NCBI GenBank assembly: GCA_946886375.1
Contig: CAMPIL010000006.1
Span: 1-24,902 of the forward strand
Length of the DNA stretch: 24,902 nucleotides
Reading direction: 5' to 3'
From: an uncultured Phycisphaerales bacterium
GTDB lineage: Bacteria > Planctomycetota > Phycisphaerae > Phycisphaerales > SM1A02
Shown here: positions 4,243-20,220 of the stretch, in pieces
How positions within the stretch are numbered: the stretch's first letter is position 1
Layout of the letters: each line of letters opens with the position of its first letter
Notes under the pieces: generated by a model
The model's input: only the letters and a program-made list of their open reading frames with translations
Told to the model about the DNA's origin: nothing
The model's database searches: none
Made by a program: the position numbers and the translations under genes

Positions 4243-5643
4243 TCAGCGGGGATTTTTTCCGGCAGCCTCAATCAAGGCATTGAGGTTCTGAATGAATAGG
4301 TCAAGCATTTCCCGATCGGTGGGACGCAATTCCTTAGCTTCTTCCGCAAAGTTGAGCAGCACGATCGTGGCGTCGAAGAGTTGGCCCTGCGCCAGGGCGG
4401 TCTTGACGCGCGCGACCTGACGCTCACGCAGCGCGATGCGCTTGGTCTCGGTTTCGAGCACCTTTTTCTCCCAATCCTTTTTCTGCTCCGCAACCTGTTG
4501 GGCTTCAACGCGCAGCCGGTCGGCTTCAACGGCGTTCGCGCGCTCACGCTCAGCAACACTGCGCTGCGAATACGCAGCGCCCATTGAGGCTGCGCACAAG
4601 ATGGCCAGCAGCCAGATCACGGTCTTGGCGAGGAACGCCCTGGGGTTGCGTCGCCACGCCAGCACCTGCCGGGTGAGCAGGAACGTGCGCTGCCACGGGA
4701 TCGGCTCGTTCTTCACCCAGCGGCGCAGGTCATCGGCGAGCAGGGTTGCGGAGGCGTACCGGTCCTCCGGCCGAGGAGCAATGGCGCGCTCGATGATCTG
4801 CGCCAGCCGCGGATCCAGTTCCGGGTTCAGATCGGCGGGATTGCGGGGCGGATCTTGCGCCACGCGCCGCACGGCCTCGTGGAATGCCACGTGGACATCG
4901 TGCGGCGTGTGGCGGGCGAGCAACAGGCATGCAATGGCGCCGAGCGAGTAAACATCGCTTCGGGTGGAGACAATCGCATGTTCGCCGCGCGCCTGTTCCG
5001 GCGCCATAAACCCCAATGTGCCGATCGGATCGCCCTCCCCGGTCAGAGATTCAATGCCCTCCTTGTCAAGGAGCCACGCAATTCCAAAGTCGATGATGAC
5101 AGGTTTGCCATCGTGTTGAACCATGACGTTGGCCGGCTTGAGGTCGCGGTGAATCACGCCGCGCTCATGCAGGCCTTGCACCAGGTCGCAGATGTCTGCC
5201 ATCAGAGCGGCCTTCTGCTGCATGCTCAGATCGCGTGCCTTGCAGAAATCCAGCAGCGTCTGGCCTTCGACCAGGGTGGTCGTGATGTAGAGCCTGCCTT
5301 CGGTGATGCCGTAGTCCAGCACGCGCGGCACGCCTGGCATTCGCAAATCTGAAAGCACATCCAATTCGCGCCAAGCGCGCTGGTCGGATCGCGCCGAGCC
5401 GAGCGCACGGCTGAGCACCTTGACCGCGAGCGGATCACCAAAATCCTCGCGAAAGGCCAGATACACTTCGCCTCCGGCTCCGCGTCCAATCAGGCTGTCC
5501 AATACATAGCCCTCAATGGTCGGCGCGCCGTCGGGCATGGCGACGGCCGGTTCATCCGCAAGCAACGCCCCCACAAGGCGGCTGGCGGATTCAAAACTCA
5601 TTTTGTTGGATTGCGTGGGTGTCAGGTCTTCAAGGCGGTTCAT
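4243..5643 (-). CDS. Membrane-tethered Ser/Thr protein kinase (PknB-like)
   Basis: A 466-residue Hanks-type protein kinase. The catalytic domain spans about residues 46-310: Gly loop GRGAGGEV 53-60, VAIK-type Lys75, alphaC Glu93, catalytic loop HRDLKPAN 165-172 (Asp167), DFG 185-187, APE 214-216, and SDVYSLG. All residues needed for phosphotransfer are present. One membrane helix follows at about 340-358, then a charged coiled-coil rich in Glu/Arg (about 360-420) and a short C-terminal helix. The usual planctomycete C-terminal sensor such as TPR or WD40 is reduced to this coiled coil. I chose the ATG at 5643 because AAGGAG lies six bases upstream; two further in-frame starts lie upstream at 5682 and 5709. 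It is divergent from an ECF-like sigma factor across 160 bases, a pairing typical of planctomycetes. Confidence 0.93.
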   Translation of the reverse strand: MNRLEDLTPTQSNKMSFESASRLVGALLADEPAVAMPDGAPTIEGYVLDSLIGRGAGGEVYLAFREDFGDPLAVKVLSRALGSARSDQRAWRELDVLSDLRMPGVPRVLDYGITEGRLYITTTLVEGQTLLDFCKARDLSMQQKAALMADICDLVQGLHERGVIHRDLKPANVMVQHDGKPVIIDFGIAWLLDKEGIESLTGEGDPIGTLGFMAPEQARGEHAIVSTRSDVYSLGAIACLLLARHTPHDVHVAFHEAVRRVAQDPPRNPADLNPELDPRLAQIIERAIAPRPEDRYASATLLADDLRRWVKNEPIPWQRTFLLTRQVLAWRRNPRAFLAKTVIWLLAILCAASMGAAYSQRSVAERERANAVEADRLRVEAQQVAEQKKDWEKKVLETETKRIALRERQVARVKTALAQGQLFDATIVLLNFAEEAKELRPTDREMLDLFIQNLNALIEAAGKNPR

Positions 5644-5803
5644 CACAGGCTCCTTCTGCGAATCGCCCCCGAAAAAAACCATGCCCCTCCCCGTAAATAC
5701 GCGGCTCAACTCAAAAACTGCACTGGCTAGTTACTTTTGTTTTTGTGGTAGGCTGTTTTCGGAGCCCAAATCGCGGTTTCGGGCGCGAATCAGGAGATTT
5801 CCG
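5644..5803. promoter_or_regulatory. Shared divergent promoter region, kinase / sigma factor
   Basis: The 160 bases between the two divergent start codons contain an unusually T-rich tract (about 5732-5758, TTACTTTTGTTTTTGTGG) in an otherwise GC-rich setting. This is where both promoters should lie. I cannot assign -35/-10 boxes with confidence. Ribosome-binding sites are clear on both sides (5650-5655 minus, 5792-5796 plus). Confidence 0.5.
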
Positions 5804-6529
5804 GTGCTTGAGCATTCCGACGCTGCTTTCCCCTCGACTCGATGGTCGCTGATCGATGCCATCGTCAAGGGCGACGATGCCCAGCGTCAAACAGCATCGA
5901 GCATCCTGGCCAACACCTATTGGCCGGCAATCTACGCGTTTCTCCGCAAGTCAGGAACGTCCGGCGAGGACGCCGCCGAACTCGCCCAGGCCTTCTTCAC
6001 GCACGTCATTCTCCGCCGCAAACTCTTTGAGCGAGCCGATCCGTCAACGGGTCCGCTGCGCACGCTGATCCTCCACGCGCTCAAGAACTACGCCACCGAC
6101 TGCCAGCGCCGCGAGGGCGCGGCCAGAACGAACATCCCCATTGAACCACGAGACTTGAAGTACGAGGAAGGACTGCTGGATCACAAGCCGTTTGATCCTG
6201 ACGCCTACTTCATGAAGCGATGGGCGCTGGCGGTGCTTCAAGAAGCGCTGCGTCGCTGCGAGGAGCACTATCGCTCCGCGGGCAAGGCGTCGCATTGGCT
6301 GATGTTTGAGGCGCGCGTGATCCGACCATCGCTGGCGATGCAGCCCCCGCCCTCGCATGAGCAGATCGCCAAGTCGTTGAATCTCGGCGGTCCCTCCGCT
6401 TCGATCATGGCGGTGCGTGTCGTGCAGAAGCGACTGATGGCGCTCATCCGCCAGGTGCTTGCGGAATCCAATCACGATGTCAAGGCACAGGAAGCCGAGT
6501 TCAACGAAGTCGTGGCGCTTTTGACCTGA
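5804..6529 (+). CDS. ECF-like sigma-70 family RNA polymerase sigma factor
   Basis: A 241-residue sigma factor of the type found beside Ser/Thr kinases in planctomycetes and verrucomicrobia. The N-terminus FPSTRWSLIDAI is the typical opening of that group. Region 2 includes YWPAIYAFLRKSGTSGEDAAELAQAFFTHV and continues through ALKNYATDCQRRE. Region 4 includes the helix-turn-helix SHEQIAKSLNLGGPSASIMAVRV followed by a basic helix. It would direct RNA polymerase to an unknown regulon. Translation probably starts at the GTG at 5804, with AGGAG at 5792-5796 seven bases upstream; sequence before it is in frame but lies over the divergent promoter and the antisense of the kinase. No anti-sigma factor is adjacent, so control by kinase phosphorylation is plausible but inferred. 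Confidence 0.88.
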   Translation: MLEHSDAAFPSTRWSLIDAIVKGDDAQRQTASSILANTYWPAIYAFLRKSGTSGEDAAELAQAFFTHVILRRKLFERADPSTGPLRTLILHALKNYATDCQRREGAARTNIPIEPRDLKYEEGLLDHKPFDPDAYFMKRWALAVLQEALRRCEEHYRSAGKASHWLMFEARVIRPSLAMQPPPSHEQIAKSLNLGGPSASIMAVRVVQKRLMALIRQVLAESNHDVKAQEAEFNEVVALLT

Positions 6530-6616: not shown

Positions 6617-6805
6617 CTCTGTGAAACAGGCGTTTGGAACTGCCATACGCGCGTGTGGCTCGTGCATATAGGGCGCTGGCTGTGTGAAACGCGCGTGTGG
6701 TTGTGTGAATCGCGCGCGTGGCTCGCCGGCGCGGCGGTTTCACCCAGCCAAACGCGCGTTTGGCAGAGCCACAAGCGCAGCGCGCACAGGGATTCGCGCG
6801 CGAGA
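6617..6805. repeat. Degenerate tandem array, 21-bp period, palindromic core
   Basis: Nine consecutive 21-bp units in exact phase. TGG closes units at 6637, 6658, 6679, 6700, 6721 and 6763; units six, eight and nine have drifted. The best units carry the core AAACGCGCGTGTGG. The seventh contains a perfect 18-bp palindrome, GCCAAACGCGCGTTTGGC, at 6747-6764. A further in-phase TGG ends at 6595, so the array probably once extended leftward. Because 21 bp is two turns of B-DNA, the palindromic cores all face the same side of the helix. There are no spacers, so it is not a CRISPR. Confidence 0.8.
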
Positions 6806-6966: not shown

Positions 6967-8109
6967 ATGAATTCGATCCAGCAACAGATTTCCGTCGGCT
7001 TCCGCCATCCGATTCACTTCACCCGCGGCGTCTTTGATGCGGCCAATCCACTGTTGCGTGAGACTCTCGGTGAGAATCCCGGCAAGAACGGCGAGAAAAT
7101 CCTGTTCGTGATCGACGACGGCGTGCTGGCGCATCATCGGCGCCTGGTCGAGGCGATTGATGCGTACTGTCGTGCCACGGGGCTGGACCGAGGTGTCTCC
7201 CAGCCGCACGTTGTTTTGCCCGGCGGCGAGCGCGTGAAGAATGAGCCGATCCACCTGCAGGCGATGTACAGAGCGGTCAATGATCGCGGCATCTGCCGAC
7301 ACTCAACGATCGTGGTGATCGGCGGCGGCGCGGTTCTCGATCTCGCAGGTTATGCAGCGGCGACGGCGCACCGCGGCATCCGCGTCATTCGCATACCCAC
7401 AACCGTCTTGGCGCAGAACGATTCCGGCGTGGGCGTGAAGACGGGCATCAACGCCTTTGGCAAGAAGAACTTCATCGGTGCATTTGCTCCGCCCGCAGCC
7501 GTCATCAACGACTGGGATTTTCTCCCGACGCTCGACCAGCGCGACTGGCTGGCGGGGATTTCCGAGGCGGTGAAGGTCGGCTTGATCAAGGACGCAGCGT
7601 TTTTTCAGTGGATTCAGCAGAACGCCGCCGCATTGGTCAACCGCGATCTGCCCGCAATGCAGAAACTGATTCATCGCTGCGCCGAACTGCACTGCCGGCA
7701 CATCGCCACCAGCGGCGATCCGTTTGAATCGGGTTCGGCCCGCCCGCTGGATTTCGGTCACTGGGCCGCGCACAAACTGGAGCAGATGACCGATTTCAAA
7801 CTCCGTCACGGCGAGGCGGTGGCCATCGGCATCGCGCTGGACGTGCGGTATTCGCGTCTGATCGGCTCGATCACTGACGCCCAGGACCGCACGATCCATG
7901 AGACGCTCACCAATCTGAATCTGCCCGTCTCGCACCCGGCCATGTGCAGGCAGGATGAATTGCTCAAGGGACTGAATGAGTTTCGCGAACACCTTGGAGG
8001 GCGGCTGACGGTCACGATTTTGCGGAGCATTGGCGAGGGCTATGAGGTCAACGAGATCGACCTGCCGAAGATGCAGCAGGCGATCGCGCAGCAGACCGGT
8101 GCAGCGTGA
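6967..8109 (+). CDS. eboD: EboD-like sugar phosphate cyclase (3-dehydroquinate synthase family)
   Basis: A 380-residue member of the dehydroquinate-synthase-like cyclases, metal- and NAD-dependent enzymes that close a sugar phosphate into a carbocycle. It has the nucleotide-binding GGGAVLDLAGYAA (119-131), PTTVLAQNDSGVGVKTGIN (144-162), KKNFIGAF, and the three zinc ligands Glu200 (SEAVK), His265 (DFGHWAAH) and His281 (RHGEAVAIG). Against the true AroB in this window it has GVGVKTG for GGKTG, LDFGH for LNLGH, and lacks the Lys and DERE segment upstream of it. These changes and its neighbours (TatD hydrolase, EboE, EboC, EboF) identify it as EboD-like rather than a second AroB. In other bacteria the Ebo set is tied to export of a metabolite precursor; the substrate here is unknown. 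Confidence 0.87.
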   Translation: MNSIQQQISVGFRHPIHFTRGVFDAANPLLRETLGENPGKNGEKILFVIDDGVLAHHRRLVEAIDAYCRATGLDRGVSQPHVVLPGGERVKNEPIHLQAMYRAVNDRGICRHSTIVVIGGGAVLDLAGYAAATAHRGIRVIRIPTTVLAQNDSGVGVKTGINAFGKKNFIGAFAPPAAVINDWDFLPTLDQRDWLAGISEAVKVGLIKDAAFFQWIQQNAAALVNRDLPAMQKLIHRCAELHCRHIATSGDPFESGSARPLDFGHWAAHKLEQMTDFKLRHGEAVAIGIALDVRYSRLIGSITDAQDRTIHETLTNLNLPVSHPAMCRQDELLKGLNEFREHLGGRLTVTILRSIGEGYEVNEIDLPKMQQAIAQQTGAA

Positions 8110-8139
8110 TGCACACGCCCAAGTGCGCCCGCCTTCCCC

Positions 8140-8145
8140 TAGAAT
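8140..8145 (+). promoter_or_regulatory. Candidate -10 element (TAGAAT), leaderless arrangement
   Basis: TAGAAT matches TANNNT and ends exactly six bases before the ATG at 8152, which has no ribosome-binding site. A transcript would start at or next to the start codon, so this gene may be transcribed apart from the cyclase 42 bases upstream. Confidence 0.45.
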
Positions 8146-8151
8146 GCCATC

Positions 8152-8454
8152 ATGGCCAAGTCGAAATTGCCCCCGCCGCTGAATCGATCCGAGGCGATCG
8201 AGATGTACTTCATGGAGCACCGCGCGAAGTTGATCGACATCGCGGCGTTTCTGGACCGCCTTGATCGCGCTGACGCAGGCCAATCGAAGACGGAGGACTT
8301 CCGCATAACCGCATTTCGCAATGCGATCGAACTTTTGATTGATGGCAAACCAGACCGCGCCAAGCGCGTGCTGGAACATTTCAGCGATCCGACCACTGAT
8401 CCGATTCCCAAAGCGCCGATGAAGGGGGCGCTGGGAGCGTACAGAAAGGCATGA
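8152..8454 (+). CDS. Small conserved-looking protein within the Ebo-type cluster, unknown function
   Basis: A 100-residue soluble protein, predicted helical, with no signal peptide or membrane segment. It opens with a basic, Pro-rich tail (MAKSKLPPPL), then an amphipathic block EAIEMYFMEHRAKLIDIAAFLDRLDRA, then a helix ending KRVLEHFSDPTTDP. I cannot place it in a named family. It occupies a position inside the cluster where eboA might be expected, but at 100 residues it is under half the usual EboA length and shows no similarity I can recognise. It lies 42 bases after eboD and 70 before the TatD gene, with a TANNNT element six bases upstream and no Shine-Dalgarno. Codon use and surroundings make it a real gene; the function is open. 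Confidence 0.78.
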   Translation: MAKSKLPPPLNRSEAIEMYFMEHRAKLIDIAAFLDRLDRADAGQSKTEDFRITAFRNAIELLIDGKPDRAKRVLEHFSDPTTDPIPKAPMKGALGAYRKA

Positions 8455-8524
8455 GCCTTGTGTGTTGCGGCAAGCCGCCGACTCGCCAACTTTGACCTCT
8501 GACCCCTGAATCCAAACCTCTGCC

Positions 8525-9343
8525 GTGCGCTACATCGACCCCCACATTCACATGGTTTCCCGCACCACTGACGACTACGCGCGCATGGCGATGGCCGGGT
8601 GCGTGGCCGTCACGGAGCCTGCGTTCTGGGCGGGATTTGATCGCAGTTCCGCCGATGGCTTTTACGACTATTTCTGCCAACTCACCGAACACGAACCAAA
8701 ACGCGCGGCGAAGTTTGGCATTCCGCATTTCTGCTGGCTCTGCATCAATCCCAAAGAATCTGAAGACCCCGGATTCGCGCGCGAAGTGATCTCGCTTATT
8801 CCGCAGTTTCTGGACAAGCCCAACGTGCTGGGCATCGGCGAGATCGGCCTGAATAAGAACAGCCGCAATGAACTGATCATTCTCGAAGAACAGATCGCGC
8901 TGGCGGCCCAGCACGATCAACTCATTCTCGTTCACACGCCGCATCTTGAAGACAAACTCAAAGGCACCAGACTGATCATTGATGCGATCAAGCGCGTGGG
9001 CGGCGGAAACATTGATCCGGGCCGCGTGTTGATCGATCACGTTGAAGAGCACACCGTGGAACTGGTGCTGGATGCGGGATTCTGGGCGGGCATGACGCTG
9101 TATCCTGACACCAAGTGCACGCCCCAGCGGGCGGCCGACATCTTCGAGACGTACGGCACCGAGCGATTGTGGATCAACTCCGCCGGCGACTGGGGCCACA
9201 GCGACCCCTTGGCCGTGCCCAAATGCCAGCAGGAATTGAAACGCCGCGGCCACAGGGAACAGACAATCGCGAAGGTATCCTTCGACAATCCGCGCACGTT
9301 CCTGTCGCAGTCGAAGAAGTTTGAGGTGCAGGGCGATCGCTAG
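8525..9343 (+). CDS. eboB: EboB-like TatD-family metal-dependent hydrolase
   Basis: A 272-residue amidohydrolase-fold protein, probably cytoplasmic. The metal-binding set is complete: His7-x-His9 (DPHIH), Glu106 (GIGEIGLN), His137 (LVHTPH), His172 (LIDHVEEH) and Asp222 ([11 protein letters not shown]). This matches TatD/EboB hydrolases; the biological substrate in Ebo clusters is not established. The start is the GTG at 8525, which puts the HxH motif at residues 7-9 as in the family; no good Shine-Dalgarno or TANNNT is seen. It ends with TAG overlapping the AGGA and TAGGAT that precede the next gene, so it is packed directly against eboE. A general TatD nuclease is the main alternative, but the context favours EboB. 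Confidence 0.87.
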
Positions 9344-9346
9344 GAT
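9341..9346 (+). promoter_or_regulatory. TAGGAT element overlapping the eboB stop, six bases before eboE
   Basis: TAGGAT fits TANNNT at the same six-base distance from the ATG (9353) seen at other genes here. It includes the TAG stop codon of eboB. The same bases also supply a weak Shine-Dalgarno (AGGA, seven-base spacing), so either reading is possible. Confidence 0.3.
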
Positions 9347-9352
9347 GTTTCC

Positions 9353-10528
9353 ATGCGCGACGTCCTGGGACCCGGCACAACGCTCGGATACTGCACGAAC
9401 GTGCATGCGGGCGCGACGTGGGAGCAAACCAGAATCAATCTTGAGCAATACGCGGCGCGCGTGCAGCAGATCGCGACTCCGCAGTCACCGTTGCCGATCG
9501 GCTTGTGGCTTTCCGCCCAGACCGCACAGGAACTTCTGAAACACGATCGCGTCGGGGAATTGATGCAGACGCTGGACGCGAATGGGCTGCGCGCGTTCAC
9601 GATGAATGGTTTTCCGCATGACGACTTTCATCAGCCAATCGTGAAGCACGCGGTCTACCGCCCGCACTGGGGTCAGCGCGAACGGCTCGAATACACGTGC
9701 AATCTTGCAGCAATACTCGCTGAGTTGCTGGAGGAGGGCGAAGAAGGCAGCATCTCCACGCTGCCGCTGGGCTGGCCGTCCGACATGATGCGCCCGGCGA
9801 ATCTTCGGCAATGCGGAGTTCATCTGCACGAATTGTCCGCGGCACTTCAAACCATCGAAGATGAGCATGGCTGCCTCATTCACATCGATATCGAACCCGA
9901 GCCTGGGTGCCAATTGCAGGATAGTCTTGGGCTGGTTGCCTACCTGGGCCAGTTGTTCAATGGCAAGCGCGGTCACTGCGTGCAGAGGTACATTCGCGTC
10001 TGCCACGATGTCTGTCACGCCGCAGTGATGTTCGAAAATCAGGACGAGATGTTCGACCGCTATCGCGCAGCGGGTGTCAACATCGGAAAGGTGCAGATTT
10101 CAAACGCGATTCGGGCTGACCTGCGCAATCTCTCCGCGCGAGAGCGCCGCGATGCCTTGGCACAACTTCGGCAGTTCAGCGAAGACCGCTACCTCCACCA
10201 GACGATGGTCCGCGATGGTGATTCGCTGCGATTCTACGATGACTTGCCCAAGGCTTTTGCTGAGTATGGATTGACGGACCGGGCCGGTGATGAGTGGCGG
10301 GTTCACTTCCACGTGCCGGTGTATCTTGAATCCTTCGGTCTGCTCAAGAGCACGCGCGGTCACATCATCGAGTGCATGAAGTTGCTGCGCGGCTCCGAGG
10401 TCAGGCATTGGGAAGTCGAAACCTACGCTTGGAACGTGCTGCCGGATGAATTGAAAGTTCCCGATCTTGCCGAAGGCATCGCGCAAGAATTGAAGTGGGT
10501 GCAGGAGCAGGCGCGGGCGCTGATATGA
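9353..10528 (+). CDS. eboE: EboE-like TIM-barrel metabolite-traffic protein
   Basis: A 391-residue protein of the xylose-isomerase-like TIM-barrel superfamily, with the hallmarks I associate with EboE: LGYCTNVHAG at 11-20, HIDIEPEPGC 177-186, a Cys/His block CHDVCHAAV 217-225, KVQISNAI 246-253, RVHFHVPV 316-323 and EVETYAWNVLP near 354-364. The conserved acidic and His residues on the strand ends would bind a divalent metal. Its chemical role is unknown; in Ebo clusters it acts with EboC and EboF on a metabolite that is moved to the periplasm. It starts ten bases after eboB ends and its TGA overlaps the eboC ATG (ATGA), so translation is coupled to the prenyltransferase. Confidence 0.9.
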   Translation: MRDVLGPGTTLGYCTNVHAGATWEQTRINLEQYAARVQQIATPQSPLPIGLWLSAQTAQELLKHDRVGELMQTLDANGLRAFTMNGFPHDDFHQPIVKHAVYRPHWGQRERLEYTCNLAAILAELLEEGEEGSISTLPLGWPSDMMRPANLRQCGVHLHELSAALQTIEDEHGCLIHIDIEPEPGCQLQDSLGLVAYLGQLFNGKRGHCVQRYIRVCHDVCHAAVMFENQDEMFDRYRAAGVNIGKVQISNAIRADLRNLSARERRDALAQLRQFSEDRYLHQTMVRDGDSLRFYDDLPKAFAEYGLTDRAGDEWRVHFHVPVYLESFGLLKSTRGHIIECMKLLRGSEVRHWEVETYAWNVLPDELKVPDLAEGIAQELKWVQEQARALI

Positions 10529-11412
10529 GCGGCATCGCAGCGAAACTTCGCACGTTCGCGGAACTTGGCCGCGTGTCCAATCTCCCCACGACCATCAGCA
10601 ACGTGCTGACGGGCGCGGCGTTGGGAACCGTCGGTCTGCCATGGACCGGAGCGGATTTGTTGCGGGTTGGCGGCACGTGGATCGCGATCGCCTGCTTCTA
10701 CATCGCGGGCATGGCGATGAACGACGTGGTCGATGCGAAAGTCGATGCGGTGGAGCGGCCGAATCGGCCCATACCCTCCGGGCGTGTCCCGCGGCCGCAC
10801 GCTGCGGCGTTCACGATCGTGCTACTTGTTGTGGGGTTGCTCATCTTCGCGATGATGAACTTGATCGCGTTGGTTTGTGCGGTGGTTCTGGTCGCGCTCA
10901 TTGCAATTTACAATCTGATCCACCAGTCCACGGCTGCATCCGTCATTCCGCTTGGATGTGCGCGAGGCATGGTGTACGTTGTCGCGGCGGTTTCCCTCCA
11001 GCCGCGAGTGGACTGGGCGCATTTGAGCGTCTTCGCCGGCGCACTGGCGGCGTACACTGCGCTGTTTTCATTGGTCGCGCGAAGCGAGACGCAGAAGCAG
11101 CTTGATCGCCGGCGATGGGTCGCGGTGTTCCTGCCGTTCATCGCGGCGGCGCCGTTGGTGCTGTCGGTTTCCCTCAGTCGGCTGTTGCCGCTGCTTCCAC
11201 TGGCGATCATGCTGGCATGGCTGTCGCGCGGGATTGGAGCGGTTTTCGCCTCGCCCCCGCGAACCCGCGAAGCGGTGATGGCCTGGATTTCCGGAATCTG
11301 CCTCATCGACGCGGTGTACCTGGCGCAGCATGACCGACCCGCACTGATGGCGGCAGCCGGCGCGTGTTTCATTCTGACGCTCGTGATTCAGCGGCGGATC
11401 GCGGGAACCTGA
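10525..11412 (+). CDS. eboC: EboC-like UbiA-family prenyltransferase
   Basis: A 295-residue integral membrane protein with about eight or nine hydrophobic helices. It carries the first UbiA aspartate motif NDVVDAKVDAVERPNRPIP (residues 66-84), which binds Mg-diphosphate of an isoprenyl donor. The second motif is not a canonical DxxxD; the corresponding loop reads YNLIHQSTAASVIPLGCARG, as I recall for EboC-type members, so the acceptor chemistry may differ from ubiquinone or menaquinone enzymes. The start ATG at 10525 overlaps the eboE stop, giving an N-terminus MSGIAAKLRTFAELGRVSNLP that fits the family (ELxRxxNLPT). An in-frame start at 10495 would only add a Gly/Ala repeat. It presumably works in the inner membrane on the cluster's metabolite. 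Confidence 0.9.
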   Translation: MSGIAAKLRTFAELGRVSNLPTTISNVLTGAALGTVGLPWTGADLLRVGGTWIAIACFYIAGMAMNDVVDAKVDAVERPNRPIPSGRVPRPHAAAFTIVLLVVGLLIFAMMNLIALVCAVVLVALIAIYNLIHQSTAASVIPLGCARGMVYVVAAVSLQPRVDWAHLSVFAGALAAYTALFSLVARSETQKQLDRRRWVAVFLPFIAAAPLVLSVSLSRLLPLLPLAIMLAWLSRGIGAVFASPPRTREAVMAWISGICLIDAVYLAQHDRPALMAAAGACFILTLVIQRRIAGT

Positions 11413-11618
11413 TCGCTCAAGAAGAAGTGTCGTCGCATGTCATCGCGTCAGGCCGGTGGAGATCGCTTTGACGTAGTGGTTTCATGCCGCGCCTCTTGGC
11501 ATTTCGTCTGAACGGGACGAGACGATGCAGCAACGTCACTGCGCAGCGTCACCGAACCTCCGACCACGGGCACGCAATGATCCGACAGAGAACATATCTG
11601 TCTCGGACACTCTTTGTT

Positions 11619-11642
11619 ATCGTGTTTTTGTAATAACACGAT
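11619..11642. promoter_or_regulatory. 24-bp perfect dyad, operator-like
   Basis: ATCGTGTT and AACACGAT are perfect inverted copies separated by TTTGTAAT. The half-site spacing and AT-rich centre resemble a binding site for a dimeric repressor. It lies about 160 bases upstream of eboF inside the only long gap of the Ebo-type cluster. A transcript hairpin is an alternative; the T-rich stretch is within the loop, not after the stem. Confidence 0.4.
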
Positions 11643-11792
11643 CCACAGCCGACATCCGGCCAGTGTCGCTTGCGAAGGCCTGCGCCCAGGCGGCGCACGT
11701 CATCGAGCGCGGCCACAGATACTGCACGGAACTACTGCCCGCGACTCCCGCCTACGCCACGCGTGCAGCCGCAGCACGCTCATCGCTGCGTG

Positions 11793-11798
11793 TACACT
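11793..11798 (+). promoter_or_regulatory. Candidate -10 element (TACACT), leaderless arrangement for eboF
   Basis: TACACT fits TANNNT and ends six bases before the ATG at 11805, which has no Shine-Dalgarno. Same geometry as at 8140 and 20275. Confidence 0.4.
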
Positions 11799-11804
11799 GC
11801 GCAC

Positions 11805-13193
11805 ATGGCCAATCCCACGGCGGTCATCCTTGTCGTTGGCTTGAATCGTTCATTGATTGGCGACGCCTCGCCTCGCATCAGGGCCTTTGCCGATGCCGGC
11901 GCAGTCACCACGCTCACACCCGTACTTCCCGCAGTGACCTGTTCGGTGCAATCGAGCATGCTCACCGGACTAGCGCCTTCTCAGCATGGCATCGTCGGCA
12001 ACGGGTGGTACGATCGGGATCTGGCGGAAATTCATTTCTGGAAGCAGTCCAATCATCTGGTGCATGGTGAGAAACTCTGGGAAACCGCGCGGCAGCGCGA
12101 TCGCTCCATCACCTGCCTCAACATGTTCTGGTGGTTCAACATGTACTCGAGCGCGGAGTATTCGGTTACGCCGCGCCCGATGTACAAGGCTGATGGCCGC
12201 AAGATTCCAGATATCTACTCGCGTCCCGCCGCGCTGCGCGATGAACTTCAACACGAACTCGGCCGATTTCCGCTGTTTCATTTCTGGGGGCCTGCTTCAT
12301 CGATCAAATCCAGCCGCTGGATCGCCGACGCCTCGATGATCGTGCATCGCAGGCTTTCACCCACGCTGAATCTCATCTACCTGCCGCATCTGGATTACGC
12401 GCTGCAGAAACTGGGGCCGGAGCATCCGGACATTCCTCGCGCCGTATCTGAAGTTGATTCCGTCGTCGGCGATCTGCTTGACTATTTCCAGCAGCGCGGC
12501 GTGCGCGTGATTATCGCCAGCGAATACGGCATTGAAGGCGTCGATGACTCGGTGCATATCAATCGCCTGCTCCGCGATGAAGGCGGGTTGCGCGTGCGCG
12601 AGGAACAAGGGCTGGAAATGCTCGACGCAGGCGCAAGCGACGCGTTTGCCGTCGCCGATCACCAGATCGCGCATGTGTACATCAAGGATCACTCCAAGAT
12701 CGCACGCTACGCGAGTTTCTGCCGAGGCATTGCAGGAGTCGAGCAGGTCTTGGATCGTGACGCCCAGGCTCGCATCGGCCTCAACCACGCGCGAGCGGGA
12801 GAACTGGTGCTGATCGCTGAGTCTCGACGCTGGTTCAGTTATGACTATTGGCTGGATGATTCGCGCGCACCGGACTTCGCGCGCACAGTGGACATTCACC
12901 GCAAGCCGGGATACGACCCGCTGGAACTGTTCATGAATCCCGCTTTACGGGCGCCGAAATTGCAGGTCACTGGAAAACTGCTGCGCCGTAAACTTGGATT
13001 TCGCACACTGCTGGATGTAATCCCGCTGGACACCCGGCTGGTGCGGGGTTCGCACGGCCGAATCGATCAGGCGGAGCGACTGAAGCCGGTACTCCTCACG
13101 CAAGCCGATCTCGCGCCGCCTTCGCCTTCGGTGCCTTGCACGCACCTGCGCGATCTGGTGCTGCAGCATCTGGGCGTGGCGGAAGCGCTCTGA
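11805..13193 (+). CDS. eboF: EboF-like alkaline-phosphatase-superfamily phosphodiesterase
   Basis: A 462-residue member of the type I phosphodiesterase/nucleotide pyrophosphatase branch of the alkaline phosphatase superfamily. The nucleophile region reads TPVLPAVTCSVQSSMLTGLAPSQHGIVGN, with Thr45 as likely nucleophile. Later metal-site segments are YLPHLDY (His195, Asp197) with GPEHP 204-208, ASEYG 239-242 in place of the usual SDHG, and HQIAH 286-290. The first metal-binding Asp seen in classical members near residue 14 is replaced (VVGLNRSLIG), so metal use may differ. No signal peptide is visible, suggesting a cytoplasmic protein. I start at MANPTAVILVVG because upstream in-frame sequence is low-quality Arg/Pro-rich. 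It is the last Ebo-type gene and lies 392 bases after eboC. Confidence 0.87.
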   Translation: MANPTAVILVVGLNRSLIGDASPRIRAFADAGAVTTLTPVLPAVTCSVQSSMLTGLAPSQHGIVGNGWYDRDLAEIHFWKQSNHLVHGEKLWETARQRDRSITCLNMFWWFNMYSSAEYSVTPRPMYKADGRKIPDIYSRPAALRDELQHELGRFPLFHFWGPASSIKSSRWIADASMIVHRRLSPTLNLIYLPHLDYALQKLGPEHPDIPRAVSEVDSVVGDLLDYFQQRGVRVIIASEYGIEGVDDSVHINRLLRDEGGLRVREEQGLEMLDAGASDAFAVADHQIAHVYIKDHSKIARYASFCRGIAGVEQVLDRDAQARIGLNHARAGELVLIAESRRWFSYDYWLDDSRAPDFARTVDIHRKPGYDPLELFMNPALRAPKLQVTGKLLRRKLGFRTLLDVIPLDTRLVRGSHGRIDQAERLKPVLLTQADLAPPSPSVPCTHLRDLVLQHLGVAEAL

Positions 13194-13304: not shown

Positions 13305-14228
13305 ATGAGAGCCGCATCGCCCATCGCGATCATTCTGAATCCTGCATCGGGAAGCAGACGCTTCAAGCCCGAGGTCATCGAGCAACTGTGCCGCAGCATG
13401 GATGTGCCTGCCGAGGTCATTTCGCCTGGCGAGCGCGATGACATTTCCCAGATCGCTCGCGAGCAGGTGCAACGCGGCTCCCGCACGATCGTTGCGGGCG
13501 GCGGCGATGGAACGGTCAACGCGATCGCCGCGGTGCTTGCGGAATCCGATACAGCCCTGGGCGTGCTTCCCCTTGGAACGCTGAATCACCTGTCGAAGGA
13601 CCTTGGCATCCCGCAGAATTTGAGCGATGCGATGCGCGTGCTTGCGGGCGGTGAGTCCCAGCGCATCGACGTGGGCGAAGTGAACGGGCGCATTTTCCTC
13701 AACAACGCAAGCCTCGGCATCTATCCACGCATCGTCGAGCAGCGCGAACGCGATCAGCAACAGCACCGGCTTCCCAAATTGCTGGCGCTGATGAAGGCCA
13801 CTTTCAATGCGATTCGCCGACTTGTGCTGCACCGCGTGCGCATCGTGTTCAACGGTCGTGAAATCCAGCGACGCTCGCCTTTCGTCATGGTGGGCAACAA
13901 CGAATACAGCCTGGAAGGAATCGACCGGGGAACGCGCAGAAGTCTCACGGCCGGCCGGCTCAGCCTGCTCGTCGCGACTCCTCGCAATCGCTGGGACATC
14001 GTCCGCCTGGGCTTTCGGGCCGTGTTTGGCCGGCTCCGGAAGGATCGTGATTTTGAAGTGTTCACCGCGCGCGAGTTCGATGTGCACGTCCGGGGCAAGC
14101 CGGTACGCATTGCGCTGGACGGCGAAGTCGTTCGCCTGCAATCGCCGCTGCGATTTCGAATACGCGCGTTGAGCCTTCGCGTCGTGCGGCCGAGCCTCAA
14201 CGCGCCTTCGAACGGGGCTCGTTCATGA
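13305..14228 (+). CDS. Diacylglycerol/sphingosine-kinase-family lipid kinase (YegS/DgkB-like)
   Basis: A 307-residue cytoplasmic lipid kinase of the DAGK_cat family, which phosphorylates a lipid hydroxyl using ATP. Visible motifs are LNPASGSRR near residue 11 (nucleotide loop), GGGDGTVNAIA 65-75, GTLNHLSKDLGIP 91-103, and LDGEVV near the C-terminus, the last supplying a catalytic acidic residue. The length is normal. The ATG at 13305 has no Shine-Dalgarno; TATTGA six bases upstream is a near match to the TANNNT pattern of its neighbours. Its TGA overlaps the ATG of the metallophosphoesterase (ATGA), so the two are translationally coupled. It follows eboF by 111 bases, so it may or may not belong to the Ebo transcript. 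Exact lipid substrate unknown. Confidence 0.9.
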   Translation: MRAASPIAIILNPASGSRRFKPEVIEQLCRSMDVPAEVISPGERDDISQIAREQVQRGSRTIVAGGGDGTVNAIAAVLAESDTALGVLPLGTLNHLSKDLGIPQNLSDAMRVLAGGESQRIDVGEVNGRIFLNNASLGIYPRIVEQRERDQQQHRLPKLLALMKATFNAIRRLVLHRVRIVFNGREIQRRSPFVMVGNNEYSLEGIDRGTRRSLTAGRLSLLVATPRNRWDIVRLGFRAVFGRLRKDRDFEVFTAREFDVHVRGKPVRIALDGEVVRLQSPLRFRIRALSLRVVRPSLNAPSNGARS

Positions 14229-15049
14229 CGACGCTTGTGCATCTTTCTGATCTGCACTTCGGAAGCGTCGAACCCGACGTGATCGCGCCGCTGCGCTCCA
14301 GCATCCTGGAGATTTGCCCTGATCTCGTCGCCGTCTCCGGCGATCTGACGCAGCGGGCCCGACGGGCTCAGTACAAGGCCGCGCGCGAATTTCTTGATTC
14401 ATTGCCGTTCCCGAAGATTATCGTGCCGGGCAACCACGACGTGCCGCTGTACGACGTGGCGCGGCGGTTCTTCAGCCCGCTGGGGCGTTATCGCCGGTAC
14501 ATCAGCCCCGACACCGAGCCAACCTGCATCGGCGAGGACATCGCGGTGATCGGCGTGAACAGCGCGCGGTCGGCGACGTTCCAGAGCGGGCGAATCAACG
14601 ACAGGCAACTTGCGCGCGTGCAGGATTTCTTCTCGGGCGTGACGGATGAATTCACCAGAATCGTGGTGTGTCATCATCCATTTGATATGCCGCCGGGCCG
14701 GCCGCATGGCCGGGTGCGCGGGGCCGGGCGGATCATCTCCTCGCTGGCCAGCGCGGGCGCTGAACTGGTGCTCTCGGGCCACTTCCATCTCAGTCACGTC
14801 GGCCATGCCATCGAGCAAATTGGAGCCAACGGCCGGCTGCTGCTGCTGATCCATTCGGGCACGGCCACCTCCAACCGCCGCCGGGGCGAAGCCAACGCGT
14901 TCAATTGCCTGCGCATCAACCGCCCCGCCATGGAAATCACCCGGTACTGGTGGAACGTGGAGGAGAATCGATTCGTGTCTGTGCTGCGCGAGGATTTCGA
15001 ACGGTCACGCTCGGGTTGGGCGGCAGCACCCGCCTCCAAGCGGGCCTGA
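14225..15049 (+). CDS. Calcineurin-like metallophosphoesterase
   Basis: A 274-residue phosphoesterase with the full two-metal site: DLHFG (Asp9, His11), GDLTQRAR (Asp40), GNHD 69-72 (Asn70, His71), CHHP (His150) and GHFHLSH (His186, His188). This branch resembles CpdA/Icc-type phosphodiesterases, but a lipid-phosphate or UDP-sugar substrate is equally possible. No signal peptide is seen. The ATG overlaps the stop of the lipid kinase by four bases, so a kinase/phosphatase pair acting on one lipid or its product is plausible from context. A CCGAG/CTCGG hairpin and a T-rich terminator-like structure follow within 60 bases, suggesting the transcript ends here. Confidence 0.91.
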   Translation: MTTLVHLSDLHFGSVEPDVIAPLRSSILEICPDLVAVSGDLTQRARRAQYKAAREFLDSLPFPKIIVPGNHDVPLYDVARRFFSPLGRYRRYISPDTEPTCIGEDIAVIGVNSARSATFQSGRINDRQLARVQDFFSGVTDEFTRIVVCHHPFDMPPGRPHGRVRGAGRIISSLASAGAELVLSGHFHLSHVGHAIEQIGANGRLLLLIHSGTATSNRRRGEANAFNCLRINRPAMEITRYWWNVEENRFVSVLREDFERSRSGWAAAPASKRA

Positions 15050-15064
15050 ATGCCTCCCGAACAG

Positions 15065-15107
15065 CCGAGAACTCCTCGGACTGTGAAAAGATGTCCGGTT
15101 TTGTTTG
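15065..15107 (+). terminator. Terminator-like region with two mutually exclusive hairpins
   Basis: Hairpin one is CCGAG-AACTC-CTCGG (15065-15079). Hairpin two pairs CGGAC (15077-15081) with GTCCG (15093-15097) and is followed by GTTTTGTTTG. They share bases 15077-15079, so only one can form. Hairpin two with its T-rich tail would act as an intrinsic terminator for the lipid kinase/phosphoesterase transcript, about 45 bases after its last stop codon. Confidence 0.4.
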
Positions 15108-15132
15108 CGATTGCGGCAACGCGGGGTACTCT
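15105..15132 (+). promoter_or_regulatory. Candidate promoter of the beta-helix gene
   Basis: TTGCGA (15105-15110), a 16-base spacer and TACTCT (15127-15132) make a plausible sigma-70-type promoter, 34 bases before the chosen start at 15167. It lies directly after the terminator-like hairpin. Match to consensus is moderate. Confidence 0.35.
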
Positions 15133-15166
15133 GATACCGAAGAGTCAGGTTAGTCCCGCCATTGCC

Positions 15167-17677
15167 ATGATCCACCTTTGCATGCTGAAATCCGCCACAT
15201 TGCTGGCGTGTGCCATCGCCACCCTCGGCGTCTGTGCGCCTGCCAACGCGGGCGGCATTCTGTATGTCGATGACAACGCACCCCCCGGCGGAAACGGCGT
15301 GGCTTGGAGCACCGCTTTTCGATACCTGCAGGATGCGCTCGCAGCGGCTTCCATTCCCGCCAATGGCGTTACCGAAGTGCGCGTCGCCCAAGGCGTGTAC
15401 CGACCTGATCAGAACGCCTCCAGTCCCGCCGGCACCGCCGATCGCGAAGCGACATTTCGCCTGATCGAGAACGTCACTCTCGCAGGCGGTTATCTTGGGC
15501 TGAGCGCCGGTCGCGGGCAGGACCCAAATGCCCGAGACGTCAGCGCGTATGAAACAATTCTCAACGGCGACCTGGCCGGCGATGACCTCCCGCCGCCCGC
15601 TCCCGGCACAATCGTCGCTCTGGAGAGTTTCGCCAACAGCACAGAGAACAGTTACCAGGTCGTGACCGCACTCAACGTGGATGAGACGGCGGTGATCGAT
15701 GGATTCACAGTCACTGGCGGGTATGCCGACGGCGCCAGCCTCGGCGCGACGCCAGACAGCCGTGATCAAGGCAGCGGGATGAACATCTATTTTTCATCGC
15801 CCACGCTCATCCGCTGCACCTTTCTGCACAACTGGAATTTCAATCACGGCGCGGTGAACGATCACGGCGATTTCACGTCGCTCGCGCAATGCACCTTCCG
15901 CGCCAACTACGCCAACCTGTTCGGCTCGGGACTGTACAGCCATCACCATTCCGCCACGACGGCGACCGATTGCGTTTTCCAGGACAATCGCACGCCGGGC
16001 GAAGGCGGCGGCGGGTACAGCCGCAGCATGCGATTCGCCGCCTACATCAATTGTGAATTCCACAACAACGCAGCCACAAAGGGCGGCGGCATGTACAACG
16101 CCCCGCAAAGCACCACCACGCTCACCAATTGTCTCATCCAGAACAACGGGGCGTTCTTCGGCGGCGGAACATACAGCGATGACAGCACCGCCCTCATCAG
16201 TCAATGCACGATTCAGAACAACTTCGCCGAAAGCCAGGGCGGCGGCATGTACAACAACGTCGGCGGGCCCTCGATCGTCGACTGCCACTTCCTGGCCAAC
16301 TACGCGCCGGGCGGCGGCGGAGGGACATGGAATGATCGCAGCAACGCATCAATGACCGATTGCGTGTACGAGGGCAATATCGCTGAGGGCGCGGGCGGGG
16401 CCGGACTTTACAACCTCGGCGGCCTGCCCAGCGTGACCGATTGCCTGTTCACCGCCAACGTGTCCGGTGGCGGCGGCGGCGGGTTGTGGAACGGTGAAAA
16501 CAGCCCCGTTGTTTCCAATTGCGTGTTCATCGCGAACGTCGCGGTGTCCGGCGGCGGCGCGTACAACACCGACAACAGTTCGCCCACTGTCATCGGCTGC
16601 ACCTTCACCAGCAACTACGCCGAAGAGGGCGCCGGGCTCTACAACGTCAGTTCCAATTCAATCGTCACCCAATGCACGTTCACAGGCAATATCGCGGCCG
16701 GCCCGAACTTCGCCGTTGGCGGCGGCATGTCCAATTATTTCTGTGACCCGCAGATCATTGAATGCGAATTCGTCGACAACCAGGCGCTATTTGGCGGCGG
16801 CGGCATGTACAACGAAGGCAATGCACCATCCATCCGCAACTGCACGTTCATCCGCAATACCGCCTACGGCGATGAACAAGGGTGGGGCGGCGGGATGTTC
16901 AACGCGTACTTCACCAGCGCGAACATCGTGAATTGCCTGTTCGCGGGCAATACGGCCAATTACGGCGGAGCGATTCACAACCTCGCCCTGAGCGAACCCA
17001 ACATCATCAATTGCACCATCGCAGGAAACGCAGCGGAATCGCTCGGCAACGGCGGCGCGGTCTTCAGTTTCAGCAACTCCGCCGGCTCCATCACCAACTG
17101 CATCCTGTGGCAGAACTCACCTGATGAAATTGCCGGCGATCCCACTGCCGTTCGATACAGTTGCGTTCAGGGCGGCTACGGCGAGCCGAGCGACAACAAC
17201 ATCAACGCCGATCCACAGTTTTTGACGCCGCCCGGATTCGGCGCCGATGGAATCTGGGGCACAGACGATGACGCCTATGGCGACTTGCGGCTGTCGCTGA
17301 ATTCGCCCTGCATTGACGCAGGCGATAATTCCGCCATGATCGCCGGCATCAACGTTGATCTTGGCGACGAGCCGCGCATCGTCGATGACCCACACACTCC
17401 CGACACAGGCTGGCCGGATTCATCCATCGCGATCATCGACATGGGCGCGCATGAGTTTCAGCCGCTGCTCTGCGTCGCGGACATCGCGCCGGCAGGACCT
17501 CCCGCAGGCGATGGCGTCGTGAACGTCAACGATCTGCTCCTGGTGATCAACCATTGGGGCGCGTGCCCCCCCGCTCCCGCGGCGTGCCCGGCAGACCTCG
17601 CGCCAGCAGTTCACGACGGCGTGGTCAACGTGATCGACCTTCTTGCGGTCATCAACGCCTGGGGCGCGTGCAGGTAA
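15167..17677 (+). CDS. Secreted right-handed beta-helix protein with GC-type dockerin-like tail
   Basis: An 836-residue exported protein. Residues 1-28 form a signal peptide ending PANA. The body has about fourteen repeats of GGGMYN…CxFxxNxA, the pattern of parallel beta-helix/POMP-like passenger domains, often surface adhesins or polysaccharide-active proteins. It ends in a 'choice-of-anchor Q' style segment (ADPQF…DLRLSLNSPCIDAG). Residues 769-836 are two dockerin-like calcium loops, GDGVVNVNDLLLVINHWGAC and DGVVNVIDLLAVINAWGACR, the GC-type dockerin typical of Phycisphaerae. No polysaccharide-lyase catalytic set is recognisable. The start is uncertain: ATG 15167 or 15182 both give a signal peptide; an in-frame ATG at 15050 would add 39 unlikely residues. 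No cohesin partner is encoded here. Confidence 0.88.
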   Translation: MIHLCMLKSATLLACAIATLGVCAPANAGGILYVDDNAPPGGNGVAWSTAFRYLQDALAAASIPANGVTEVRVAQGVYRPDQNASSPAGTADREATFRLIENVTLAGGYLGLSAGRGQDPNARDVSAYETILNGDLAGDDLPPPAPGTIVALESFANSTENSYQVVTALNVDETAVIDGFTVTGGYADGASLGATPDSRDQGSGMNIYFSSPTLIRCTFLHNWNFNHGAVNDHGDFTSLAQCTFRANYANLFGSGLYSHHHSATTATDCVFQDNRTPGEGGGGYSRSMRFAAYINCEFHNNAATKGGGMYNAPQSTTTLTNCLIQNNGAFFGGGTYSDDSTALISQCTIQNNFAESQGGGMYNNVGGPSIVDCHFLANYAPGGGGGTWNDRSNASMTDCVYEGNIAEGAGGAGLYNLGGLPSVTDCLFTANVSGGGGGGLWNGENSPVVSNCVFIANVAVSGGGAYNTDNSSPTVIGCTFTSNYAEEGAGLYNVSSNSIVTQCTFTGNIAAGPNFAVGGGMSNYFCDPQIIECEFVDNQALFGGGGMYNEGNAPSIRNCTFIRNTAYGDEQGWGGGMFNAYFTSANIVNCLFAGNTANYGGAIHNLALSEPNIINCTIAGNAAESLGNGGAVFSFSNSAGSITNCILWQNSPDEIAGDPTAVRYSCVQGGYGEPSDNNINADPQFLTPPGFGADGIWGTDDDAYGDLRLSLNSPCIDAGDNSAMIAGINVDLGDEPRIVDDPHTPDTGWPDSSIAIIDMGAHEFQPLLCVADIAPAGPPAGDGVVNVNDLLLVINHWGACPPAPAACPADLAPAVHDGVVNVIDLLAVINAWGACR

Positions 17678-17865: not shown

Positions 17866-20220
17866 ATGAACGCCCGAATCCTCAAAAACATGCCGTTCAG
17901 AACAATTGGCCTGACCTGTTTGATGGTGTCTGCGTGCACAGGTTCGCACGTACATGCTCAAGACTGCCTCTTTGAACAGTACGACGTCCTCTTACCCGTT
18001 CACGTGGCGGCTGGTGATCAATTTGGCGTGGCTGTAGCCGGCACGGGAAATTGGCTGTTCGTCGGCGCGCCTGGACATGAACACACCACGAACCAATCGA
18101 ATCCCGGGGCGGTGTTTGTCTTTCGGTTCGACGGCTCGCGATGGGTGTACTGGCAAGAGTTGATGCAAGCGGGGTTTCCGATTGCAGGCGAATTCGGTTG
18201 CGCCCTTGCAGCCGACAACGATTCACTTCTGATTGGCGCACAGGGCACAGCGATGAATTCACAGTGCGCAGCCTACGTCTATAAATTCAACGGTTCGCAA
18301 TGGGTCAAGTCGGCCACGTTCAAGCCGCGCGAGAGGGGCGATCTCCGCCAGTTCGGATCTTCCGTGGCGCTGCAAGGGAATCTTGCGGTGGTCGGCGTGG
18401 GATCGGTTCACGGCGAGCAAGTCGACGGCATGGGCGCAGTGTATGTTTATCGCTACATCGGAAACGCGTGGGTTGAAGACAGTCGACTGACTGCCGATGC
18501 TCCCTCGCCTTATGACCACTTCGGCGCGAGCGTGGCCATTCACAACAAGTCGGTGCTCGTCGGGGCTCCGGACGTCGATGGTGACTTGGGCGCCAACATT
18601 GGCGCGGTGTTCGCCTTCCACCACAACGGAACTCAGTGGGCGCAACAAGCCAAACTGCAAGCGCCGGATGCGGCGGCCGGGGATCGCTTTGGCTGGCGGA
18701 TCAGCAGCGATTCCGGCACACTGCTTGTCGGCGCACCGCTCGTCGATCCGGCCGGCCCTGATTCAGGCGCGGCGTATGTGTTCACATGGGACGGCGAATT
18801 CTGGACGGCAGCGCAAAAGATTGTTGCGTTCAATGAGACCGCCGGCGATCAGTTTGGCTTTGCCGTGCACGTGCGCGGAATGCACATGCTCATCGGAGCG
18901 CCACAGCACAAAATCGTTCGAGAGAACCACGCGCATGAGCGAGCCGGAACTGCATACCTGTTTCAGGCCGCCGGCGGAACATGGATTCATCAACGCAACC
19001 TCGAACTCTATCAGGCGTTCAATGAAATGGGGCTCCCTCCGTATGCATGCTGGCTCGACGGTGCGCCACCGTGGTTCCTCGAGGGCTTGTCTGAAGCACG
19101 ACTTGGAATTTCCGCAGCATTCACGGACCAGCATCTGATCATTGGCTCTGCCTTGGATCGTGGTTATTGCCCGGTGAATAATTGGAATTTGGCTCACAAG
19201 GGAGCCGTCAACATTTTTCAGATGGTTTTGGAAGAAGCCGATTGCGATGGTGACGGCTCGCCTGATGTGTGCGACGCCATGCCAGACTGCAACGGCAACG
19301 GATTGCCCGATTCCTGCGATCTCCAGACCAAATTCAGCGCCGACTGCAATGGAAACGCTTTGCCGGATGAATGTGACGCCATTCCGCTCTATCAGTATGA
19401 CGATGAGGATTGTCCAGGATTCTTCGGCGACCTGCTCACACCGCTCTCTGATCTGATTTGGCTCAATCAGTTCAGGGTTCGACCTGGAGGTCAGATGGTC
19501 ACGCACATTGTGCTGCCGACTTCGGCCTATGTTCCGGAGGGCGCGCCGGTGACCCTGTTGCTTTATTCTGACCCAAATCACGATGGCGATCCATCTGACG
19601 CCCGCCTGCTGCGAGCCGTGGATTCCGTCCGCATTGGATTCCCAGAGCAGCAGAGTCGCTATTGGCAGACCGTGCGTGTCCCAATCGAACCAACATTCGT
19701 CGGAGAGCCGGGCGAGTTCTTTTTCGTCGGCGCCATTGCCCGGCAGCCGGTTGCCGCCCTTTATGATTGGGATTGGCTTCCGGCCTTCGTCAGCACTTCG
19801 GGCCCGTTGAAACGATCGTGGATTGCAGCAGCGCGATTTGGCGAAGGCGATATCAATCATCTTGCGAACAATGAAATGCCCGTGCAACGAATACCGTCCG
19901 GAGTTTTTTTCCTTCGCGCGCTGGCCATGGATTGCAATCAGAACGGCGTGTGGGACCATTGCGACATTGCTTCAGGAACAAGCGTGGATGCAAATCACAA
20001 CGACCTGCCTGACGAATGCGAGGGCCCCGACTGTTTGGCGGATGCATTTCCTTCAGCCGGTGACGGCCTCGTAGACACAAGCGATTTGCTGTACGTGATC
20101 GACCACTGGGGCGCTTGTCTGCCGTGCTACGCCATGTGCGCCGGCGACATCAACGACGACTGCGCGGTGAATGTGATCGACCTCCTGGCGGTCATCAACG
20201 CCTGGGGCGCGTGCAGGTAA
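17866..20220 (+). CDS. Secreted seven-repeat FG-GAP propeller with GC-type dockerin-like tail
   Basis: A 784-residue exported protein; the signal peptide spans about residues 1-31 (…VSACTGSHVHAQ). Seven FG-GAP-like repeats of the form GDxFGxxVAxxxxxLxVGAP occur between about residues 48 and 430, the right number for a closed seven-bladed propeller. Next come calcium-type motifs DCDGDGSPDVCD, DCNGNGLPDSCD and DCNGNALPDECD (459-510), like thrombospondin type 3 repeats, then a beta-rich domain, two more such motifs (689-715) and a 62-residue tail (723-784) with two dockerin-like loops ending VINAWGACR. GGAGG at 17854-17858, seven bases before the ATG, fixes the start. Surface binding or adhesion is likely; no catalytic motif is seen. 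It is the neighbour of another protein with an almost identical tail. Confidence 0.88.
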   Translation: MNARILKNMPFRTIGLTCLMVSACTGSHVHAQDCLFEQYDVLLPVHVAAGDQFGVAVAGTGNWLFVGAPGHEHTTNQSNPGAVFVFRFDGSRWVYWQELMQAGFPIAGEFGCALAADNDSLLIGAQGTAMNSQCAAYVYKFNGSQWVKSATFKPRERGDLRQFGSSVALQGNLAVVGVGSVHGEQVDGMGAVYVYRYIGNAWVEDSRLTADAPSPYDHFGASVAIHNKSVLVGAPDVDGDLGANIGAVFAFHHNGTQWAQQAKLQAPDAAAGDRFGWRISSDSGTLLVGAPLVDPAGPDSGAAYVFTWDGEFWTAAQKIVAFNETAGDQFGFAVHVRGMHMLIGAPQHKIVRENHAHERAGTAYLFQAAGGTWIHQRNLELYQAFNEMGLPPYACWLDGAPPWFLEGLSEARLGISAAFTDQHLIIGSALDRGYCPVNNWNLAHKGAVNIFQMVLEEADCDGDGSPDVCDAMPDCNGNGLPDSCDLQTKFSADCNGNALPDECDAIPLYQYDDEDCPGFFGDLLTPLSDLIWLNQFRVRPGGQMVTHIVLPTSAYVPEGAPVTLLLYSDPNHDGDPSDARLLRAVDSVRIGFPEQQSRYWQTVRVPIEPTFVGEPGEFFFVGAIARQPVAALYDWDWLPAFVSTSGPLKRSWIAAARFGEGDINHLANNEMPVQRIPSGVFFLRALAMDCNQNGVWDHCDIASGTSVDANHNDLPDECEGPDCLADAFPSAGDGLVDTSDLLYVIDHWGACLPCYAMCAGDINDDCAVNVIDLLAVINAWGACR

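Follow-up and report, generated by a model that had tools for sequence, protein, structure and literature searches.

The window analysed here is a stretch of 24,902 nucleotides from an uncultured Phycisphaerales bacterium (contig CAMPIL010000006.1). At positions 6967-13193 of its plus strand, the list of open reading frames (ORFs) contains six co-directional genes in the order eboD-eboG-eboB-eboE-eboC-eboF. Judged from the encoded sequences, this run is very probably an ebo operon of the EboG type. Clusters of ebo genes have been linked to the transport of a small molecule across the bacterial inner membrane. Yurchenko et al. (2016; PMC5133447) describe ebo operons that lack eboA and bear instead a short protein, provisionally named eboG; the variant has been known since 2016, and the window is a clear example of it rather than a new system.

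The first gene of the run, eboD (6967-8109), encodes an EboD-type sugar phosphate cyclase that scores 544.2 bits against NF004852 (cut-off 333) and remains below the cut-off of the aroB model TIGR01357 (244.9 bits, cut-off 305). NF004852 is also matched by the ebo-cluster cyclases from Deinococcus, Aureibacter and Azospirillum (561, 531 and 571 bits, respectively). A separate canonical AroB encoded at 21056-22213 scores the opposite way, exceeding the TIGR01357 cut-off with 365.8 bits and falling below that of NF004852 with 183.3 bits, so eboD is not the housekeeping dehydroquinate synthase. The 100-residue product of eboG (8152-8454) is followed by that of eboB (8525-9343), a TatD-like metallohydrolase that lies barely above the PF01026 (TatD) cut-off (27.9 versus 27 bits), is 57.5 and 57.9% identical to the EboB proteins of two Deinococcus clusters, has a Protein Data Bank (PDB) relative in 3guw (E = 6.2e-20) and is assigned by trees to an EboG-linked clade. 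The next gene, eboE (9353-10528), encodes a TIM-barrel protein that reaches 421 bits against NF035939 (TIM_EboE, NCBIfam; cut-off 250).

The last two genes of the operon each have two candidate start codons. For eboC the listed ORF (10495-11412) opens at a GTG, while an ATG at 10525 gives a four-base ATGA overlap with the eboE stop codon; this ATG is the more likely start on sequence grounds (10525-11412). The product is a UbiA-like membrane prenyltransferase (PF01040, 71.8 bits, cut-off 34.2), in which N76, D77, D80 and D84 of the first Asp-rich motif (NDxxDxxxD), together with R88 and R91, are kept in more than 85% of 34 aligned EboC proteins. The listed eboF ORF (11670-13193) opens at a TTG, and the translations offer an alternative ATG at 11805, again the more likely start (11805-13193). 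EboF is a type I phosphodiesterase/nucleotide pyrophosphatase (PF01663, 210.9 bits, cut-off 23) whose matches in related loci are 51–68% identical. None of the ten window proteins scanned matched the EboA model NF035938 (NCBIfam).

Repeats occur in two gaps, one ahead of the operon and one within it. The 437-base gap upstream of eboD holds imperfect palindromes and direct repeats at 6617-6802 with a 63-base spacing and the core ACGCGCGT; most related loci showed nothing comparable ahead of eboD, although seven have 3–5 CGCGCG cores. In the long gap between eboC and eboF (11413-11804), an 8-base inverted repeat without mismatches (ATCGTGTT/AACACGAT) lies near 11619-11642. Of 36 related loci that have both genes close together, 19 show a gap shorter than 20 bases.

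The 100-residue protein, a probable EboG

Neither the 8152-8454 product nor the other EboG proteins scanned reached the cut-off of any Pfam or NCBIfam model. When some 5.8 billion proteins were searched, 898 matched at E≤10, the 120 highest-ranking ones all at E≤1.7e-28. Residues in the alignment are strongly conserved, with R24, D35, R36, R39, D49 and R69 invariant; these many homologues and conserved residues indicate that 8152-8454 is a real gene. The AlphaFold2 prediction contains three helices (residues 12-39, 50-62 and 69-77; mean pLDDT 85.5, pTM 0.68) and a C-terminal tail that is predicted to be extended with less certainty. No match to this predicted fold was found in the PDB by Foldseek at E≤10. 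EboA (P0302), by comparison, is predicted to form 15 helices (mean pLDDT 96.6) in a fold weakly resembling helical-repeat proteins, and a profile-profile comparison of EboG with EboA found no homology (probability 0.75%).

Two Deinococcus plasmids (NZ_CP097151 and NZ_CP140100, PLSDB) carry ebo clusters ordered D-small-B-E-C-F, as in the window, and their small proteins match the window EboG profile with 90.8 and 75.1 bits. The accessions of these two proteins are WP_249394952 and WP_322474966. By this homology to the small protein that intervenes between eboD and eboB in Deinococcus, the window protein is not a new accessory protein. Deinococcus is among the genera to which PMC5133447 ascribes eboG; the eboG-bearing taxa reported there include the Deinococcales, Truepera, Herpetosiphon, Thermithiobacillus and an acidobacterium. 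A Gemmatirosa plasmid encodes a further EboG homologue (87.6 bits) upstream of eboB, with eboE on the opposite strand. Short EboG forms of about 73–86 residues, which were found at 19 loci (L106-L122, L124-L125), are without the C-terminal tail common to the window, Deinococcus and Gemmatirosa proteins.

The original prediction had described five Ebo-type proteins in one co-directional run, without a recognisable EboA and with a 100-residue helical protein between EboD and EboB. All of this holds: the six ORFs lie as placed, EboE and EboD exceed the cut-offs of their models, and the small protein is predicted to be helical. Its further proposal of a variant system with a different accessory protein stands as far as the replacement of EboA by a small helical protein is concerned; this variant, however, had already been published (PMC5133447).

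Gene neighbourhood and distribution of eboG

Linkage of eboG to the other ebo genes was followed in a scan of one genome per species, which gave 271 stretches, 235 of them encoding a relative; the best 80 loci were taken. By title 72 of these are from planctomycetes, and the other eight bear unverified titles (‘bacterium’, Omnitrophota, Chitinophaga, Limnohabitans, Bryobacterales or Bacteroidia). An eboB gene follows eboG in 79 of the 80 loci, at a distance of 0 to 151 bases as measured from extrapolated match ends. The sole locus without eboB after eboG (L070) has 100 N directly 3' of the gene, and in one other (L018) only a short stretch of eboB, located at a contig end, was matched, with less than 40 bits. 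Linkage to the remaining genes is looser. An eboD gene is found within 2 kb upstream of eboG in 63 loci, eboE adjoins eboB in 34, lies farther along in 17, would fall beyond the end of the sequence in 8 and was not found despite sufficient room in 21, and the complete D-G-B-E-C-F order is present in 33. In this set, the eboG-eboB pair is therefore much tighter than the rest of the operon. Among eboG loci from the separate Planctomycetota draw described below, 24 of 30 have eboB within a flank of about 1.5 kb. The gene for EboA likewise tends to precede eboB: the two adjoin in three named clusters, and of 15 planctomycete EboA loci 14 have eboB within the flank, once at a distance of about 0.9 kb, while the last (L095) lies at a contig end.

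The distribution of EboA and EboG was compared across a single, evenly drawn sample of 246 Planctomycetota genomes, many of them incomplete. EboA (NF035938) was matched in 66 genomes, 65 of them over the cut-off, and EboG in 33; no genome contained both, compared with 8.9 expected (P = 1.4e-5, ignoring shared ancestry). A wider EboG profile that includes the short divergent forms recovered the same 33 genomes plus one weak match, in a genome without an EboA match. In a second phylum (149 genomes) EboG was found three times, once weakly, and EboA three times with no genome shared, the numbers being very small. An additional scan of 18 eboG-bearing genomes with the EboA model gave no match in any of them, although this model matched nothing in that scan and the result carries little weight alone.

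EboE is the more widespread component, present in 188 of the 246 genomes (156 over the cut-off), including 30 of the 33 with EboG and 60 of the 66 with EboA. The 150 listed of the 156 genomes over the cut-off divide into 55 with EboA, 28 with EboG and 67 with neither partner. The wider EboG profile found no match in these 67 genomes (G019 and G023 among them), and the region upstream of the EboB homologue in 30 loci of this neither-type revealed neither EboA nor EboG nor any further conserved small ORF. In 9 of the 30 the EboB homologue lies downstream of a gene read as thioredoxin reductase.

Clades and conserved residues of EboB

A first EboB tree was built from 79 rows, comprising 78 of 146 extracted EboB proteins and the window protein (76 different sequences), and a second from 71 rows (70 different); in neither had the bootstrap settled. 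In the first tree, a branch with support of 100/99 sets apart the 33 EboG-type rows, including those of Deinococcus, Gemmatirosa and the window. Another branch with the same support does so for the 16 EboA-type rows, of which 13 come from the planctomycete draw and the others from Aureibacter, Azospirillum and Streptomyces. EboB rows of the neither-type fall outside both groups. According to PMC5133447, the published EboB tree likewise divides EboA-type from EboG-type proteins.

The second tree included EboB proteins from six genomes in which eboG is unlinked and EboB is encoded elsewhere, at 55–65% identity to window EboB. All six group with the EboG-linked rows, on the side of a branch (100/100) that holds 40 rows including the window. 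The pairing of EboG with one type of EboB thus outlasts separation of the genes, favouring a functional tie over mere inheritance of the operon.

Six residues of EboB, H7, H9, E106, H137, H172 and D222, are conserved at more than 97%, 97% and 90% in 98 EboG-type, 16 EboA-type and 30 neither-type rows, respectively. We take these residues to be the metal ligands of TatD enzymes. Among the residues specific to the EboG clade are E174 and H176, which follow H172 by two and four positions, and L141, an additional position close to H137. The proximity in sequence of these three positions to H137 and H172 suggests that EboG may act near the active site of EboB.

Flanking features

Directly downstream of eboF, a YegS/MamU-like lipid kinase gene overlaps a calcineurin-like phosphoesterase gene (13305-15049); no match to this pair above 60 bits was found in the 80 related loci. 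Further on, 15050-17677 and 17866-20220 each encode a long protein that is putatively secreted or surface-located; one has a marginal dockerin as its sole Pfam match and the other has FG-GAP repeats. Upstream of the operon (4243-6529), a Ser/Thr protein kinase gene on the minus strand diverges from an ECF-like sigma factor gene on the plus strand, for which the matches are below cut-off. The listed ORFs of kinase and sigma factor overlap at their 5' ends, so that at least one of the two genes probably has a more internal start.

Discussion

The assignment of 6967-13193 as an EboG-type ebo operon is carried by the EboE and EboD models, the gene order common to the window and the Deinococcus clusters, and the homology of the small proteins. 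The original prediction had looked for consistent occurrence of the small gene next to eboB in planctomycetes and for absence of EboA from the same genomes. Both were found: eboG precedes eboB in all but one of the related loci, and EboA does not overlap with EboG in the Planctomycetota draw, where its model did match 66 genomes. Its expectation that the proteins would match the Ebo models was borne out for EboE and EboD and failed for EboC.

Several observations weigh against the assignment or against a close tie between EboG and EboB. EboC scores 100.5 bits against the EboC model NF035940, far under the cut-off of 250, and is also under the cut-off of the SCO3242 model (NCBIfam); EboC of a Deinococcus ebo cluster likewise fails NF035940 (106.9 bits). 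The name EboG for the window protein rests on taxon and gene position, and the long form of planctomycetes is well conserved, unlike the EboG termed ‘not well conserved’ by the authors of PMC5133447. Three of the 33 EboG genomes contain no EboE match. The non-overlap of EboA and EboG disregards shared ancestry and is drawn from many incomplete genomes. Linkage to eboB is not absolute, since no eboB lies nearby in 6 of the 19 short divergent eboG loci (L113, L115-L119). Finally, 59 of the 67 neither-type genomes encode an EboB homologue (39–53% identity, one being a weak partial match of 44 bits), so that EboB can exist without either partner.

Other accounts of the cluster and its small protein fare less well. 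That ordinary housekeeping AroB, TatD, UbiA and phosphatase genes have come together by chance would fit the weak family scores of EboB and EboC, but it is extremely improbable given that the EboE and EboD models are matched, that a true AroB is encoded separately at 21056-22213, and that the same order recurs in 33 of 80 related loci and on two Deinococcus plasmids. The small protein might instead be a shortened or diverged EboA, both proteins being helical and both genes tending to precede eboB. A profile-profile probability of 0.75%, three predicted helices against 15, and the published HHalign test, which was negative and accompanied by the statement that EboA and EboG are without detectable homology (PMC5133447), make this very unlikely. 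We regard it as highly improbable that the window represents a truly new ebo variant with a small protein unrelated to both EboA and published EboG. The absence of any Pfam or NCBIfam match at cut-off would agree with such novelty; against it, two Deinococcus clusters with an identical gene order hold a homologue at that position, and Deinococcus is one of the genera for which PMC5133447 reports eboG.

A weightier alternative, though one we still consider unlikely, concerns function: EboG could act in the pathway without touching EboB, the split of EboB reflecting old inheritance of whole operons. Operon types may indeed pass down entire, and some EboB proteins exist without EboA or EboG. However, in six genomes the EboG-type EboB persists alongside EboG in spite of the separation of the two genes, and inheritance of the operon as a block sits poorly with the 46 of 80 loci in which eboE does not adjoin eboB (8 of which lack room) while eboG is upstream of eboB in 79. 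We therefore favour, with some reserve, the reading that EboG is a partner subunit of EboB, probably acting near its active site and taking the place of the larger helical EboA of the other EboB clade; this partnership is suggested by the gene linkage and the trees.

Published work on relatives and the Asp-rich motif of EboC together point to a prenylated cyclitol-type product that would assist metabolite movement. In Nostoc punctiforme, mutants of eboA, B, C, E and F and of the whole cluster accumulate scytonemin monomer in the cytoplasm only, and the authors propose a cyclitol-bearing lipid carrier (PMC6282210). EboD was placed near enzymes that cyclise sedoheptulose 7-phosphate, and EboC was assigned to the UbiA superfamily (PMC5133447); UbiA-297, an EboC, farnesylates quinoline acids (PMC9235831). 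By analogy, EboD would convert a heptulose phosphate to a cyclitol, EboC would prenylate a product, and EboB, EboE and EboF would trim or rearrange the prenylated product, giving a lipid-linked molecule that could help to carry a metabolite across the inner membrane. Within this carrier pathway, the metallohydrolase EboB would most likely have EboG as its dedicated partner. Taken whole, the scheme is a tentative one for the planctomycete.

More speculatively, the EboB proteins of the EboG clade may depend on EboG as an obligate subunit, one that completes or gates their active site, with EboA fulfilling this role for another EboB clade through an unrelated fold and other EboB lineages using neither. 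If this were true, ebo evolution would be marked by repeated swapping of an essential enzyme partner, and the evolutionary core of the system would be EboB with its partner rather than the prenyltransferase. The ebo system is widespread and its chemistry is poorly understood. As a protein of about 75–110 residues tied to one EboB clade even when unlinked, EboG offers a small and concrete target, and co-purification or structural work on EboG and EboB could reveal what EboB, and EboA, do.

In PMC5133447, three Planctomycetes showed no ebo clustering, two of them being without eboD. In the literature searched, which mostly lacked subscription journals so that later work is possible, this is the only paper to mention EboE alongside Planctomycetes, and also the only one in which three or more of the terms eboA, eboB, eboG and ‘metabolite traffic’ occur. 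The window resembles the published eboG variant in having a cluster without EboA, a small protein instead and the remaining five genes, and its D-G-B-E-C-F order is the same in the two Deinococcus plasmid loci; it differs in the host phylum and in presenting all six genes in one planctomycete run. With the eboABCDEF operon of Bacteroidetes and Cyanobacteria and the scytonemin-linked cluster of N. punctiforme (PMC6282210), it shares the EboB, EboC, EboD, EboE and EboF families, whereas those systems have EboA (NF035938, PF28008) where the window has EboG, a different gene order, and an EboB of another clade, as represented by Aureibacter. UbiA-297 of marine Flavobacteria is, like the window EboC, an ebo-cluster UbiA-like protein with an Asp-rich motif; according to PMC9235831, it prefers 8-hydroxyquinoline-2-carboxylic acid for farnesylation, while window EboC differs in lying far under the EboC model.

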